Of a stretch of 32,001 nucleotides of DNA, positions 3,689 to 27,977 are shown piece by piece (the first letter of the stretch is position 1; every line of letters begins with the position of its first letter). The DNA is from Saprospiraceae bacterium (lineage in GTDB: Bacteria > Bacteroidota > Bacteroidia > Chitinophagales > Saprospiraceae). The notes beneath the pieces were generated by a model, which was not told the origin of the DNA, did no database searches, and saw only the letters and a program-made list of their open reading frames with translations. Location of the stretch: NCBI GenBank assembly GCA_027488135.1, contig JAIYCH010000045.1, positions 1 through 32,001 of the forward strand, given 5' to 3'. The translations under genes and the position numbers were made by a program.

Positions 3689-3804
3689 AAGTCGACGAAA
3701 TTTTTTAAAGCAATATTTAATCGCCCATGGCCGTTTTAATCCGTATTTTAACGGGAAATTACTTATAATTGTTTCATTCTTATTATTTACTTACTTTAGC
3801 TATT

Positions 3805-5364
3805 ATGGATAAAATTAGAATTCTTTGGGCAGACGATGAAATTGATTTGTTGAAACCTCAGGTTATGTTTCTTGAATCAAAAGGTTATGAGGTAATTATG
3901 GTCACAAATGGCCATGATGCCGTCGATGAATGTGCCACAGGAAATGAGTTTGATGTGGTCTTTCTGGACGAAAGTATGCCGGGAATCAATGGGCTCGAAA
4001 CCCTCGCCCGCATTAAACAGATTAATCCTAATCTGCCGATAGTTATGATTACTAAAAATGAGGCGGAAACCGTTATGGAGGAGGCTCTGGGTTCACAAAT
4101 TACCGATTATTTGATTAAACCAGTTAACCCAAATCAAATTTGGTTGACCCTGAAGAAAATTTTAGATAATAAACGCTTGGTTAGGGAAAAAACATCTTCT
4201 GATTACCAACAGGAGTTCAGACAAATTTTTATGCAACTCCAAAGTGGCATGGATTATATTGAATGGGCTGAAATTTATCAAAAAATTATTTCCTGGGAAC
4301 TCAAAATTGATCAGTCTAATTCTAACGAAATGGCTGATATTTTGTCTCAACAGAAAAAAGAGGCAAACGCGGCATTTTGTAAATATATATCAGGTATTTA
4401 CCCGCATTGGATGAAAAATCCTTCGGAGGGTCCCGTAAAATCATTTAATCTTCTCAGGGAAAAGGTTTTTTCACACATTCAACCAGATTGTCCAACAATT
4501 TTACTTGTCCTGGATAATCTTAGATTTGATCAATGGAAAGTTATCGAACCTATTTTATTGGAAAGATTCAAATTGCAAAATGAGGATTATTTCTTTAGTA
4601 TTTTGCCAACCGCCACGCAGTATAGTAGAAATGCTATTTTCGCCGGTATGATGCCCGCAGATATTGAAAAGCAATTTCCCCAGTATTGGGTCGGGGATAT
4701 TGAAGAAGGGGGTAAAAATAATTTTGAAGCCGAATTACTGGCCGCTCAAATAAAAAAGGTGTTCAGACGGGACATTAAACATGAGTATTTTAAAATTACG
4801 CAAGTTCAGGCCGCCAGACAACTACAGGACAATATCTTTAATTGTTTGAATAATGATCTTACCGTTATTGTATATAATTTTATTGATATGCTCTCCCATG
4901 CAAGGACTGAAATGGAGGTTTTAAAAGAATTGGCAGGTGATGAAAAGGCTTATCGGTCTCTTACCAGATCGTGGTTTGCTAATTCTCCTCTCTGGGCTGC
5001 TTTAGAAAGGGTATCTGAAAAAGATGTGAAGCTCATTATAACCACTGACCATGGAACCATTCGTGTAAATACGCCTGTCAAAGTGGTGGGTGACAGAGAA
5101 ACTACCAGTAATCTGAGATATAAAGTTGGTAAGAATCTTCAATATGATAAAAAGAATGTACTGGAACTAAAGGATCCCGGGCAAGCTGGTTTGCCTCGCC
5201 CTAACGTTAGTTCTACCTATATATTTGCTAAGGAAGACGGCTTCTTTTTATACCCAAATAATTATAATCACTATTTGAATTATTATAAAAACACGTTTCA
5301 ACACGGTGGAGTTTCTCTGGAGGAAATGATTTGTCCCATTATGCACCTTCGATCTAAGGCTTAA
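3805..5364 (+). CDS. porX: PorX: response regulator with PglZ domain, controls type IX secretion
   Basis: The protein has 519 residues when started at the ATG at 3805 ('MDKIRILWADDE'); an in-frame upstream Met at 3769 would add 12 residues that do not fit a receiver domain. The receiver domain (1-120) shows the acidic pair Asp10-Asp11, phospho-acceptor Asp55, Thr83 and Lys105. After a helical linker (about 125-225), the PglZ/alkaline-phosphatase-like domain carries metal ligands Asp237 and Asp242, a Thr nucleophile in 'TATQYSRNA' (Thr271), Asp361-His365, Asp415-His416 and His500. PorX is known from Porphyromonas and Flavobacterium as the regulator of T9SS, acting with the kinase PorY and sigma factor SigP; its PglZ domain is reported to cleave oligonucleotides. 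PorY is not in this window. Several T9SS cargo genes lie within 10 kb. The stop codon overlaps that of the convergent gene by 4 bp. Confidence 0.93.
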   Translation: MDKIRILWADDEIDLLKPQVMFLESKGYEVIMVTNGHDAVDECATGNEFDVVFLDESMPGINGLETLARIKQINPNLPIVMITKNEAETVMEEALGSQITDYLIKPVNPNQIWLTLKKILDNKRLVREKTSSDYQQEFRQIFMQLQSGMDYIEWAEIYQKIISWELKIDQSNSNEMADILSQQKKEANAAFCKYISGIYPHWMKNPSEGPVKSFNLLREKVFSHIQPDCPTILLVLDNLRFDQWKVIEPILLERFKLQNEDYFFSILPTATQYSRNAIFAGMMPADIEKQFPQYWVGDIEEGGKNNFEAELLAAQIKKVFRRDIKHEYFKITQVQAARQLQDNIFNCLNNDLTVIVYNFIDMLSHARTEMEVLKELAGDEKAYRSLTRSWFANSPLWAALERVSEKDVKLIITTDHGTIRVNTPVKVVGDRETTSNLRYKVGKNLQYDKKNVLELKDPGQAGLPRPNVSSTYIFAKEDGFFLYPNNYNHYLNYYKNTFQHGGVSLEEMICPIMHLRSKA

Positions 5365-24467: not shown

Positions 24468-24498
24468 TTGCATAAAAAACAAAGTATTATTATATTTG
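24468..24498 (+). promoter_or_regulatory. strong Bacteroidota promoter of the tRNA-shaped RNA
   Basis: TTG at 24468-24470 (-33) and TATATTTG at 24491-24498 (-7) are separated by 20 nt, the ideal arrangement. Transcription would start near 24505, giving a 5' leader of about 29 nt before the acceptor stem. Confidence 0.75.
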
Positions 24499-24533: not shown

Positions 24534-24690
24534 TGTGAGGTGATGAAATTGGCAGCCATGCCCTCTTGTCTCGGGGGTGAGGATTACGGGATAAACGTAG
24601 CATAGGGCCGGTATCGATCCAGGGGTTGACCACCAATCTTCTTGTGCTATAGCTAACTGCCTCTTGGGGGTTCGAATCCTTCTCTCACAG
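24534..24690 (+). ncRNA. tRNA-shaped RNA with an 88-nt insertion in place of the variable arm, GUC anticodon
   Basis: Every arm of a tRNA can be drawn by hand. The acceptor pairs TGTGAGG (24534-24540) with TCTCACA (24683-24689; 7 bp, one G-U), followed by discriminator G at 24690. T8 and G9 precede a D arm ATG/CAT (24543-24545, 24557-24559) whose 11-nt loop holds the GG needed to touch the T loop. The anticodon stem is CCCTC/GGGGG (24561-24565, 24573-24577) around the loop TTGTCTC, with triplet GTC. The T arm is GGGGG-TTCGAAT-CCTTC (24666-24682). Between anticodon and T arms lie 88 nt (24578-24665) instead of 5-24. These could close through GAGG/CCTC (24579-24582, 24660-24663) and TAGCATA/TGTGCTA (24598-24604, 24643-24649). 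CCA is not encoded. The D arm resembles tRNA-Leu; the G discriminator suits Ser or Asp. I do not recognise it as tmRNA or any catalogued RNA. Confidence 0.75.
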
Positions 24691-24701: not shown

Positions 24702-24769
24702 AAGCGGATAACCCTTTCCCTGATAAATTTATTGATTCAGTGAGTGTAGAAAGGAAGGATTATCCGCTT
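24702..24769 (-). terminator. long hairpin, oriented as a terminator for the minus strand
   Basis: The arms AAGCGGATAA (24702-24711) and TTATCCGCTT (24760-24769) pair perfectly, and partial CCTTTCC/GGAAGG pairing extends the stem. On the minus strand the hairpin is followed at once by ATTTTTTTTTG, the form of an intrinsic terminator; on the plus strand no U-run follows. It starts 12 nt after the 3' end of the tRNA-shaped RNA. It may shield the RNA gene from antisense transcription, or be a 3' structure of the precursor. Confidence 0.55.
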
Positions 24770-24961: not shown

Positions 24962-26233
24962 ATGCGTAATTTTTGTTTGTCTGTCGTTCTCTTGTTTTTA
25001 TTTTACTCAAATGTAAGTGCTTTCGTTGGTTGCCTTTCTGGTAATTGTTATGAAGGTTATGGCGTTTATATTTATCCTAGTGGCGGACGTTATGAGGGTG
25101 ATTTTCAACGGGCAAACCCCAACGGAAAAGGTAAATTGCTTTTTCCAAATGGCGATTTATACATCGGGGAATGGGTAAACAGTTATAGACAAGGTGTCGG
25201 TAAAATGTTTTACCAAAATGGCGATTTATACGAAGGTGGTTTTTTTTATAGTAAGTTTCATGGGATCGGAAAATATACATTTTTTGTTGGTGGAAATTAT
25301 CAGGGTAGTTGGCAAATGGGTGCTCATCACGGCTTTGGTATTATGAACAATCCAGATGGTACTTCGTACGAAGGTTCTTTTGTCGCCGGAAAAAAAGAGG
25401 GTATCGGAAAACTTACCTTTCCCGATGGTAAAATCACCATTGGTGTGTGGGAAAATAATCAACTTAGTACCCCAGCTCCTAAAGTTGCTCCACCGACTAT
25501 TAAGGTGGAAACTATTAAAATTCCTAAAATTCGTGCCCTCATTATAGGTGTTTCCGATTATAATGAAATGAAGAAATTAGAGTTTAGCGATGATGACGCT
25601 CAACATATTTTTGATTTTTTACAATCCGAAGCTGGTGGTTCAGTACCTTTATCACAAATTATTTTATTGAAAGATCAGCAGGCTACATATAAAAATGTGA
25701 TGGGTGCCGCTAATCAGTTGTTTTCAAAAGCAAATCCTGAAGATTTAATCTTGTTCTATTTTTCAGGGCATGGTCTGCCAGGAGCCTTTCTACCAGTGGA
25801 CAGTGACGGTATCATGCATCGAATAAATCACGAGGAGGTCAAATCTATTTTGTTACATAGTCCCGCTAAACATAAATTGGTTTTTGCCGATGCTTGTCAC
25901 TCAGGAAGTTTTCGCTCCGCGGCTGAAAATGAAAGTTACTCTCATCTTCTCTATGAGTCATTAGCAGGATCTTCAGGCGGCTTAGGCCTCCTTTTATCCT
26001 CAAAAACAGAGGAGTTTTCTCACGAATTCGATGGTATTAAATCAGGGGTTTTTAGCCATTTTCTTATTCGTGGTCTAACCGGCGAAGCTGAGAAAAATAT
26101 GGATGGCCTCGTTTCCGTTAACGAATTATTTAATTTCGTGTTTGAACAGGTCCGGTGGTTTACTCAAAATAAACAATCGCCTGTTTTATATGGCGGAATA
26201 GACAAAAATATGCCGGTTTCTGTAGTTCGCTAA
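24962..26233 (+). CDS. exported MORN-repeat protein with caspase-like (C14) peptidase domain
   Basis: The protein has 423 residues. The signal peptide ends near 'YSNVSA'. A cap 'CLSGNCYEGYG' (Cys24, Cys29) opens six MORN-type repeats (about 31-165) of the form 'G.G.....G..Y.G.W', for example 'GDLYIGEWVNSYRQGVGK'. A short Pro/Lys/Thr linker (168-188) leads to a caspase-fold domain: 'RALIIGVSDY' (strand 1), catalytic His270 in 'LFYFSGHG' and Cys312 in 'VFADACHSGS'. Near the end, 'EKNMDGLVSVNE' (377-388) resembles an EF-hand loop. Bacterial caspase-like proteins cleave after basic residues in many cases; the specificity here is unknown. It is followed after 46 bp by a longer paralogue. Export would place the peptidase outside the cytoplasm, unlike most death-effector caspases. 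Confidence 0.88.
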   Translation: MRNFCLSVVLLFLFYSNVSAFVGCLSGNCYEGYGVYIYPSGGRYEGDFQRANPNGKGKLLFPNGDLYIGEWVNSYRQGVGKMFYQNGDLYEGGFFYSKFHGIGKYTFFVGGNYQGSWQMGAHHGFGIMNNPDGTSYEGSFVAGKKEGIGKLTFPDGKITIGVWENNQLSTPAPKVAPPTIKVETIKIPKIRALIIGVSDYNEMKKLEFSDDDAQHIFDFLQSEAGGSVPLSQIILLKDQQATYKNVMGAANQLFSKANPEDLILFYFSGHGLPGAFLPVDSDGIMHRINHEEVKSILLHSPAKHKLVFADACHSGSFRSAAENESYSHLLYESLAGSSGGLGLLLSSKTEEFSHEFDGIKSGVFSHFLIRGLTGEAEKNMDGLVSVNELFNFVFEQVRWFTQNKQSPVLYGGIDKNMPVSVVR

Positions 26234-26267
26234 GTATTATATGTATTATTTTATGATATAAATATTT

Positions 26268-26275
26268 TATATTTG
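26268..26275 (+). promoter_or_regulatory. -7 box directly before the second MORN-caspase gene
   Basis: The sequence reads TATATTTG, an exact TAnnTTTG, with its last base 4 nt before the ATG at 26280. Initiation from it would give a leaderless or nearly leaderless mRNA, or translation from the second Met (26289). No clear -33 TTG was found. Confidence 0.45.
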
Positions 26276-26279
26276 TTCA

Positions 26280-27977
26280 ATGAAATGGATGTTGTTTTTT
26301 TTTATTTTCCTATTGTTTAACTGGCCATTGTTCCTCTATGCACAATGTGGCTCTGGAGATTGTAAAAATGGATTTGGTGTTAAAACATTCCAGGATGGCT
26401 CCAGATATATGGGTGCATTTGTTCAAGGAAACAGACAGGGTATCGGCATTTGTTTTTGGAAGAATGGTTCTCGTTTTTTTGGTGAATGGAAACTGGATAA
26501 ACCAGAGGGTGTGGGTGTTTTTATCAATGCGCAATCCGTAAAACAGCAAGGCTTGTGGAAAAAGGGGAAGCTTTTCGAGGAAAATGCAAGTTTGGTCACA
26601 GAAAAGTTATTCTCCACTTCCAGCCGTATTCAAGGTTGCTTAGCTGGTGATTGTATTGGCGGAAATGGTACGCTAATGGTTAATGGGGATATTTATATGG
26701 GCGATTTTAAAAATAATCTTCGCCATGGGGTAGGCGGTATTTGTTACTATTTTAATGGATCTGAGTATAAAGGAGACTGGCAAGAGGATAAACAACACGG
26801 AAACGGAGTGTTAACCTATGCTGACGGCACCATTAGAAAGGGGATTTGGTCCAAAAATATTTATCAAGGTTCTTCTGACAAAGGAATAAACATACCCACA
26901 AGTAGTCCGCAACTTCCCACTCCCCCAGTAAAAGAAAAATTTGAAGGTTGCCAATCGGGCAATTGTAAAAATGGAATAGGTACGTATATATACGCAAATG
27001 GAAGTAAATATGTAGGTGATTTTCAAAATGGGAAAGCTAGCGGAACAGGAAAAATATCTTACTATGATGGAGATGTGTATGAAGGGGAAATTGAAAATGG
27101 TTACATGCATGGAAAGGGGGTGATGATTTTAGCGAATGGAAATAAAGTGCAGGGAATTTGGGAATCTGGAAAATTTATAAAAAGTATTGGGCCTGAAGTG
27201 GTCTCTAATCCAGTCACTGCCAATACGCCTTATTCTTTCTATGAAGGTGAAGTATATGTTTTACTAGTAGGCGTATCTAACTATGTAAATCATAGAGAGC
27301 CGCTTCAATATCCTGATAATGATGCATTAAATCTGTTTGCTTTCCTCAGAAGTCCGGAGGGTGGTGCCATACCATCAAAGAACATTATAAATTTGGTTGA
27401 TAAATTAGCCACACGAAGAAATATTCTCGATTCCCTGGATGCAATGTTAAGTAGAGTGACAAAAAAAGATATGGTGATATTTTATTTTTCTGGTCATGGC
27501 ATAAAAGGGGCATTTTTACCCATAGACTATGACGGTACTTTTGAAAAAGTGGTGTATCATCATGAAATATACTCAGCGCTTCAACAATCTAATGCTCAAT
27601 TTAAAATGTGTATCGCCGATGCCTGTCATGCAGGTAGTATGCAGGAGCAAAAGGGCTTTCTTGGGAGTAGTCAAACCGATTTCTATCAAAACAGCCAATC
27701 CGTCCAATCTGATTTTGCTATGCTTCTTTCGTCAACGTCCAGTGAGAATTCAGCGGAAGCCGATAGACTCCAGCAAAGCGTATTTAGCTATTATTTGATT
27801 AAAGGCCTTGAGGGTCTGGCTGATACTAATAGGGACAAAAGAATTAGTATTCAGGAATTATTTAATTACGTCGGCGAAAACGTTAGGAATTTTACAGGAA
27901 ACAGACAATCGCCAACGCTAACAGGACAATTTGATAGGGGTAAAATAATAGGAATTGTCAGATCTAAAGATAAATAA
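26280..27977 (+). CDS. exported protein with three MORN blocks and caspase-like (C14) peptidase domain
   Basis: This 565-residue protein is a paralogue of the gene before it. The signal peptide ends near 'PLFLYA'. Three blocks of MORN repeats each begin with the same cap, C-x-x-G-[DN]-C-x-x-G-x-G: 'CGSGDCKNGFG' (Cys23/28), 'CLAGDCIGGNG' (Cys120/125) and 'CQSGNCKNGIG' (Cys224/229). Linkers rich in Pro, Ser and Thr separate them. The caspase-like domain (about 322-540) has His406 in 'FYFSGHG', Cys449 in 'IADACHAGS' and strand 'YVLLVGVSNY'. Residues 515-526 ('DTNRDKRISIQE') are a textbook EF-hand loop with Asp, Asn, Asp and Glu at ligand positions 1, 3, 5 and 12. This suggests calcium control, which is inference. 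The triplicated MORN region against one block in the neighbour shows growth by internal duplication. Confidence 0.88.
   Translation: MKWMLFFFIFLLFNWPLFLYAQCGSGDCKNGFGVKTFQDGSRYMGAFVQGNRQGIGICFWKNGSRFFGEWKLDKPEGVGVFINAQSVKQQGLWKKGKLFEENASLVTEKLFSTSSRIQGCLAGDCIGGNGTLMVNGDIYMGDFKNNLRHGVGGICYYFNGSEYKGDWQEDKQHGNGVLTYADGTIRKGIWSKNIYQGSSDKGINIPTSSPQLPTPPVKEKFEGCQSGNCKNGIGTYIYANGSKYVGDFQNGKASGTGKISYYDGDVYEGEIENGYMHGKGVMILANGNKVQGIWESGKFIKSIGPEVVSNPVTANTPYSFYEGEVYVLLVGVSNYVNHREPLQYPDNDALNLFAFLRSPEGGAIPSKNIINLVDKLATRRNILDSLDAMLSRVTKKDMVIFYFSGHGIKGAFLPIDYDGTFEKVVYHHEIYSALQQSNAQFKMCIADACHAGSMQEQKGFLGSSQTDFYQNSQSVQSDFAMLLSSTSSENSAEADRLQQSVFSYYLIKGLEGLADTNRDKRISIQELFNYVGENVRNFTGNRQSPTLTGQFDRGKIIGIVRSKDK

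Follow-up and report, generated by a model that had tools for sequence, protein, structure and literature searches.

A tRNA-shaped RNA family with a large variable-arm domain in Bacteroidota and their phages, a candidate carrier of asparagine

Bacterial tRNA genes are presented as uniform apart from introns, with groups resembling tRNA-Sec as the main odd forms, in the available portions of two reviews (PMC4033280, PMC7609411), and genera that hold AsnRS, GlnRS, GatCAB and asparagine synthetase together are described in the accessible part of a third source, where GatCAB is regarded as possibly vestigial (PMC4206432). From the excerpted text of PMC9976931, the major aspartate determinants are G73 and the anticodon, and amidation of Asp-tRNAAsn is enabled by U1-A72 and prevented by G1-C72 and U20a. 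Here, an element at positions 24534-24690 (forward strand) of a 32,001-nt stretch of a Saprospiraceae genome (contig JAIYCH010000045.1, the window) is compared with these systems. The element belongs to a conserved, structured family of RNAs recognized by neither Rfam nor ARAGORN, and its sequence and co-occurrence with GatB make it reasonably probable that AspRS charges the RNA, that GatCAB amidates the product, and that the RNA is a non-decoding asparagine carrier.

Structure and conservation of the element

Direct reading of 24534-24690 found all the parts of a tRNA. The 5′ strand of the acceptor stem, U1 to G7 (24534-24540), pairs with the 3′ strand (24683-24689), which is followed by the discriminator G73 (24690) and a conserved C (24691), a complete CCA not being encoded; the 3-bp D arm (24543-24559) reads G18G19-C20-A21, without nucleotide 20a; the 5-bp anticodon arm (24561-24577) closes the 7-nt loop TTGTCTC (24566-24572), in which the triplet GTC (24568-24570) precedes T37 and C38; and the 5-bp T arm (24666-24682) carries the loop TTCGAAT. 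All four arms also recur in the alignment of related sequences. The body is tRNA-Leu-like, with its 3-bp D stem, AAA(n)GG loop, single nucleotide at 44, 4-bp variable stem, and 2 nt before the T stem. The initial annotation had described a tRNA-shaped RNA in which a structured element replaces the variable arm, with a Leu-like body, a GUC triplet, a G discriminator and 88 nt between the anticodon and T stems; the shape was confirmed by reading and covariation, the sequence bears out the rest, and the 88 nt were counted at 24578-24665, the same interval spanning 39 to 131 nt across 194 copies.

Covariation delimits the variable-arm domain (24579-24663) as an outer stem (24579-24582/24660-24663), a second helix (24587-24589/24657-24659), an internal loop (24590-24595/24653-24656) and a third helix (24596-24604/24643-24652), within which lies a conserved hairpin, GGGGTTGACCACC (24622-24634). 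Across copies, the build is a 3-bp second helix, the internal loop, a third helix of ∼8 bp, an optional variable hairpin, and the hairpin with GACCA, a motif present in 160/197 copies. The internal loop contains GAYAAA in 135/197 copies, facing CTAA in 189/197; among the 36 copies longer than 100 nt from which GACCA is absent, CTAA is kept in 35 and exact GAYAAA in 18. In two loci (L073, 5003-5152; L094, 5083-5224) the domain is rearranged, with GGATAAAGC placed after an extra hairpin-like stretch.

ARAGORN reported no tRNA genes in the window. Given seven forms of the element, it was negative for the full-length and four natural short forms and positive for two trimmed in silico, calling a tRNA-Asp(gtc) only once the inner part of the variable-arm domain was excised. 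At the gathering score, the Rfam tRNA model RF00005 left the element unmatched in the window and in L064, L203 and L225, and no other Rfam family, intron families included, matched it; with E up to 1, the sole match was a small nucleolar RNA (E 0.54), whose 13.1 bits fall short of the gathering score of 40.

Because the single-sequence folding energy of the element was no better than that of shuffles (z = +0.73, with a minimum free energy structure lacking the proposed D arm), one sequence alone cannot exclude chance, and covariation was used instead. Among 29 sequences of the window's family, 99.0% of 1128 cells were paired (slid controls, 47-58%), and both sides had changed in 17 of 39 pairs (shuffles, 9.0 ± 1.7), with 16 pairs invariant. 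In a set of 117 distinct rows, whose figures call for caution because the alignment had been fitted to the covariance model, 97.8% of cells were paired and 29 pairs, spanning all nine helices, had changed on both sides; the D and anticodon stems had no two-sided change among the 29 sequences and acquired such changes only in this larger set. The 7-bp acceptor and 5-bp T stems were paired in 99.3-100% of cells. Counts from a third alignment (A3) were left unused, as 53 of its 130 rows were ordinary or weak tRNA matches. Two inner stems had been singled out in advance as places where compensatory change would support the fold, and both bore such changes, in 3/4 pairs of 24579-24582/24660-24663 and 5/7 pairs of 24598-24604/24643-24649; the fold proved to be conserved in related genomes and matched no catalogued Rfam family.

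Within the genus, one copy was present in each of 7/7 genomes at 97-100% identity (158-base query), and within the window's family the RNA was found in 82/150 genomes by BLASTN at E < 1e-4, a threshold at which divergent copies may be missed. At the level of the class, covariance model R1 found copies in 50/295 genomes from 19 families, with scores of 67 bits or more and lengths from about 107 nt upward; ordinary tRNAs in that search reached up to 62 bits and 76-93 nt among the matches listed. Many genomes of the window's family have several copies, often in tandem, with eleven matches in one genome (G060), and in a locus from another family (L064) three copies follow one another every 130 nt. 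Named genomes scanned by pattern yielded at least 120 stretches, of which all 80 examined by title were from Bacteroidota, including, among the matches listed, Chitinophaga (C. pinensis at L065), Dyadobacter (D. fermentans at L086), Spirosoma, Cyclobacterium and Saprospiraceae; 71 of these stretches (L065-L135) entered the model check and the neighborhood count, with L136-L144 and 40 others left out.

Identity nucleotides and co-occurrence with GatB

Invariance of the loop was measured on 61 unique copies that were not chosen by motif, having been found by BLASTN or the covariance model (29 of alignment A1, which excludes the near-identical genus copies L002-L007, together with L036-L064), and whose source loci were the best-scoring, 30 per search. 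L065-L261 were selected with a pattern that contains the anticodon loop and were thus barred from these counts. U1-A72, G2-C71 and G73 were each present in 61/61 copies, and positions 34-38 read GTCTC in every one, so that G34, U35, C36, U37 and C38 are invariant; U33 was kept in 57/61 and replaced in 4 copies from 3 loci. In the wider collection, the GGCA of the D loop without 20a was found in 196/197 copies, the remaining one being truncated, and G73-C74 in 194/196.

C38 is a determinant for bacterial AspRS, and all of the nucleotides of an AspRS substrate considered here (G73, G34, U35, C36, C38 and G2-C71) were present in 61/61 copies, as were the features of a GatCAB substrate, U1-A72 and the lack of 20a, at the frequencies given above. 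As far as sequence can tell, an AspRS-type nucleotide set plus a GatCAB determinant is found on one RNA. The anticodon loop of canonical tRNAs combines U33 with a purine at position 37, a rule from which the RNA departs, and decoding by this loop appears unlikely. In the window's genome, both tRNA-Asp genes have G1-C72, tRNA-Asn has G1-C72 with U20a, tRNA-Gln has A1-U72, and no tRNA starts with U among the 30 of 37 RF00005 loci read. Of 30 additional genomes, all but L304 gave a tRNA-Asn call, and each of these 29 tRNAs carried the 20a insertion; the two from the window's family have G1-C72.

Across the class, GatB was detected in 218/295 genomes and GlnRS in 101/295. All RNA-positive genomes (50/50) contained GatB, 26 with GlnRS and 24 without, whereas the RNA-negative genomes comprised 8 with both proteins, 160 with GatB only, 67 with GlnRS only, and 10 with neither. 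Since GlnRS makes GatCAB dispensable for glutamine and the 24 RNA-positive genomes without GlnRS would need GatB anyway, the informative set is the 101 GlnRS-positive genomes, in which GatB was present in 26/26 with the RNA versus 8/75 without it (Fisher p = 2e-17, without phylogenetic correction). The eight exceptions, with GatB and GlnRS and no RNA, form family f13 (G164, G209, G246, G279, G309, G339, G365, G392), whose GatB is divergent (E 1e-103 to 1e-108, versus 1e-143 for the window genome's own GatB). In families f2, f3 and f41, RNA-negative sampled members were also without GatB, a joint absence that suggests more than one joint loss. Within the window's family, GatB was found in 75/82 RNA-positive versus 12/68 RNA-negative genomes (odds ratio 50, also without phylogenetic correction), and the association held at genome sizes up to 4.0, 4.0-5.0, and >5.0 Mb (126 of the 150 family genomes); allowing in this way for shared loss through genome reduction did not abolish it. 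The GlnRS-positive Bacteroidetes without gatCAB reported in the part of PMC3927822 available, 12 of 14, fit the RNA-negative set here.

AsnRS was found in 79/80 genomes tested, so GatCAB is not required there for Asn-tRNA, and loss of AsnRS was rejected as a driver. An AsnB-type protein (E ≤ 1e-60) was present in 76/80 genomes and in 47/50 of the RNA-positive ones, leaving loss of asparagine synthetase, as judged by AsnB-type proteins, unsupported as a driver. On another contig of the window's genome (C52, locus L323, 445-5380), gatB is followed by a gene for a HerA-like ATPase, an unnamed open reading frame, and a cyanophycinase gene (138.5 bits, above the cut-off), cyanophycin being an Asp-Arg polymer.

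Transcription signals, neighboring genes and phage copies

Upstream of the element, a Bacteroidota-type promoter was read at 24468-24498 on the forward strand (TTG at 24468-24470 and TATATTTG at 24491-24498), by the consensus for this phylum. The motif TAnnTTTG occurs within 100 nt upstream of 94/147 cellular copies, versus 13/147 random stretches and 15/147 on the reverse strand, and a hairpin with a T-run occurs within 110 nt downstream of 93/146 versus 8/146 random stretches. The corresponding figures for phage copies are 12/74 (random 2/74) and 7/73 (random 4/73); cellular copies thus mostly resemble independent transcription units, unlike phage copies. In the window, an inverted repeat seen by eye at 24702-24769, with 10-nt perfect arms (24702-24711/24760-24769) and no T-run after it, is a possible terminator.

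The commonest neighbor family, at 45 of the 71 pattern-selected cellular loci, was an Lrp/AsnC regulator, encoded upstream on the opposite strand in 45/45 cases, at 133-253 nt from the RNA, and the same divergent upstream arrangement was found in 19/29 model-found loci. For three examples, the AsnC score was 157-179 bits and no other Lrp type exceeded 78; as none of the three reaches the NCBI AsnC cut-off of 227, the gene is called AsnC-like. In the window itself, two adjoining genes just downstream of the element (24962-27977) encode MORN repeats and a caspase (Peptidase_C14) domain, and a response regulator with a PglZ domain, which resembles PorX of type IX secretion, is encoded at 3769-5364.

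In viral DNA, the same pattern was found in 77 stretches (L185-L261), each scoring at least 96 bits with the covariance model. Open reading frame clusters, each named from one representative, placed a terminase in 41 of these 77 loci, a portal protein in 26, and a PhoH-like protein in 20. When 15 viral loci were scanned for tRNAs, five carried 12 to 19, two carried tmRNA (L232, L245), and one had none; L225 and L232 also encode a canonical tRNA-Asp. A tRNA-Ser(tga) gene lies just upstream of or adjoins the element in L232, L225, L242 and L206. BLASTN with two phage copies against named phages and with the window copy against plasmids gave no match, and a third phage copy led to a full-length element (130.5 bits) amid tRNAs in an uncultured 636-kb phage (LR756504.1). 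Palindromes of at least 8 nt occur in the distal loop of the variable-arm domain in 22/45 phage copies (shuffle mean 4.6), through which two copies may pair, possibly as a kissing dimer; in host copies they occur in 5/108 (shuffle mean 7.5), and dimerization as a general feature was rejected because the enrichment is confined to phage copies. Two viral contigs (L250, L259) are the same from the D loop of the element onward and different before it, as if by integration into the gene.

Proposed function, alternatives and known systems

The fuller scheme, advanced tentatively, is that Bacteroidota and their phages possess an RNA dedicated to carrying amino acids for GatCAB and withheld from decoding, which AspRS would load, on which GatCAB would make Asn, and from which Asn would be released or passed on away from the ribosome under AsnC-like control. 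Maturation of the RNA would involve RNase P and CCA addition; AspRS would attach Asp, guided by G34, U35, C36, C38 and G73; and GatCAB would convert Asp to Asn, guided by U1-A72 and the missing nucleotide 20a. The variable-arm domain and the atypical loop, with U37 and a U33 that is not always kept, would bar the RNA from decoding and may offer a partner a docking site. The Asn-RNA would then supply asparagine, either released free or handed to a transferase, and free release would amount to RNA-dependent Asn synthesis compatible with a discriminating AspRS. The AsnC-like regulator, predicted to sense asparagine, probably adjusts the dose of the RNA, which copy number would also set. The initial annotation had offered several other jobs for the RNA, and its "aminoacyl donor outside translation" agrees with this proposal, although it missed the link from U1-A72 to GatCAB, the AsnC-like neighbor, the tandem arrays and the phage copies.

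Several observations weigh against the carrier proposal. Bacterial tRNAAsp has G1-C72, an aid to AspRS according to the part of PMC9976931 available, whereas the RNA has U1-A72 in all 61 copies, and the variable-arm domain could clash with AspRS. Outside the window's family, tRNA-Asn has U1-A72 in 27/27 genomes, with or without the RNA (5 lack it; the tRNA-Asn of L306 was called with one extra base), so that the RNA appears to be the sole holder of U1-A72 only in the window's genome and, relative to tRNA-Asn, only in the window's family; judged by the published determinants, however, tRNA-Asn in those other families also carries the blocking 20a. Seven genomes of the window's family have the RNA without a GatB match, and 12 have GatB without a BLASTN match to the RNA. 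Given the AsnB-type proteins of most RNA-positive genomes, a need for another source of Asn is not evident. The AsnC-like gene adjoins the RNA in 0/34 loci of the window's family (flanks of ∼1.5 kb or less), and the proposal leaves Asn-RNA without a named consumer and the phage copies without an account.

Among the alternatives, the one that survives best, though it is unlikely, is that the RNA regulates or acts as a decoy, binding AspRS, GatCAB or a tRNA nuclease while delivering no amino acid, for example as a regulator of amidation dose or a phage counter-defense sponge. Tandem arrays, presence in phages, identity elements of a binding type and a non-decoding loop would all suit such an RNA, but strict conservation of the acceptor end (U1-A72 and G73 in 61/61, G73-C74 in 194/196) suggests that the 3′ end is used. 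Less likely again is a specialized mistranslating tRNA, charged with Asp, amidated, and placing Asn at Asp codons (GAC/GAU) under regulation as a form of adaptive proteome variation. The evidence for AspRS and GatCAB applies to it equally, U33 in 57/61 copies is in its favor, and so is the canonical tRNA-Asp that phage loci L225 and L232 carry in addition to the element; insertion of Asn at Asp codons is nonetheless argued against by the predicted behavior of the anticodon loop, with U rather than a purine at 37 in 61/61 copies and U33 lost in four, and the variable-arm domain far exceeds that of decoding tRNAs in the available portions of the reviews (PMC4033280, PMC7609411).

Charging through the long arm by SerRS or LeuRS, from which the initial annotation had derived a misreading of Asp codons, is improbable. 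The D arm and variable-arm junction are indeed of Leu type by comparison with the tRNA-Leu of L262-L291, and the arm is long, but the window genome's own tRNA-Leu has A73, and the G73 of the RNA is unlike the Leu discriminator. G73 is recognized by SerRS, as stated in the excerpted text of PMC7609411; charging by either enzyme would nevertheless leave unexplained the invariant GUC and C38 as well as the association with GatCAB, an amidotransferase for Asp and Glu. AspRS is the enzyme that suits the anticodon loop, C38 and G73, and the joint occurrence of GatB and the RNA points to Asp and then Asn. A tRNA-Asp gene split by an intron in the variable arm (position 45-47, an option the initial annotation had raised) and spliced to an ordinary tRNA is very improbable, for although in silico removal of the insert yields the ARAGORN tRNA-Asp(gtc), fold and motifs of the insert are conserved, the short forms retain part of it and no Rfam intron matches it, ordinary tRNA-Asp genes coexist with it in the window's genome and two phage loci, and U37 and the lost U33 would persist after splicing.

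If asparagine carriage is the function, it would explain the survival of GatCAB alongside GlnRS, AsnRS and an asparagine synthetase, offering an answer to the puzzle of the possibly vestigial GatCAB raised in the accessible part of PMC4206432; an RNA other than tRNA-Asn would then be a metabolic asparagine carrier, of which phages carry their own copies, some beside tRNA sets and tmRNA. The family itself is a widespread structured RNA overlooked by Rfam and ARAGORN. It is counted as new, since none of the known families considered accommodates it by the tests applied, and no description of such an RNA was found in the literature, which was searched by title and the start of the abstract and in which few subscription journals or preprints were covered; the family and the carrier role would thus be new as far as that search reaches, and the proposed chemistry a variant of a known pathway.

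That pathway, tRNA-dependent Asn synthesis in Deinococcus, Thermus and Bdellovibrio (non-discriminating AspRS, tRNA-Asn with U1-A72, and GatCAB), is alike in having GatCAB beside GlnRS and AsnRS and a U1-A72 carrier, as described in the available parts of PMC4206432 and PMC9976931. It uses tRNA-Asn itself with the non-discriminating AspRS; the proposal here, in contrast, is a separate carrier RNA that combines an Asp anticodon with a large variable-arm domain and would be usable by a discriminating AspRS. With class II tRNA-Leu the RNA shares the AAA(n)GG D arm, the one nucleotide at 44, and the 4-bp variable stem with 2 nt before the T stem, and differs in G73, U1-A72, GUC with U37 and C38, and the 88 nt between the anticodon and T stems. 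With the genome's own tRNA-Asp(GUC) it shares G34 U35 C36, C38 and G73, and differs in U1-A72 instead of G1-C72, the lack of 20a, U37 instead of A37, and the class II body with its variable-arm domain. Allo-tRNAs and selC-star tRNAs also have long variable arms, several times smaller than the domain here. Allo-tRNAs include forms with non-Ser anticodons, GUC among them, in the portion of PMC7609411 available, and the RNA differs from these and from other tRNA-Sec-like forms in its 7/5 acceptor/T stems, which are not 8/4 or 9/3. tmRNA is alike in combining tRNA-like ends with an extra domain and occurs in L232 and L245, two of the 15 viral loci examined for tRNAs, where it is separate from the element; unlike it, the RNA has a conserved anticodon arm and no tag-coding part. 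The staphylococcal non-translational tRNA-Gly for the cell wall is likewise a dedicated aminoacyl donor that avoids translation, but it is an ordinary cloverleaf, carries another amino acid, and involves no GatCAB step.
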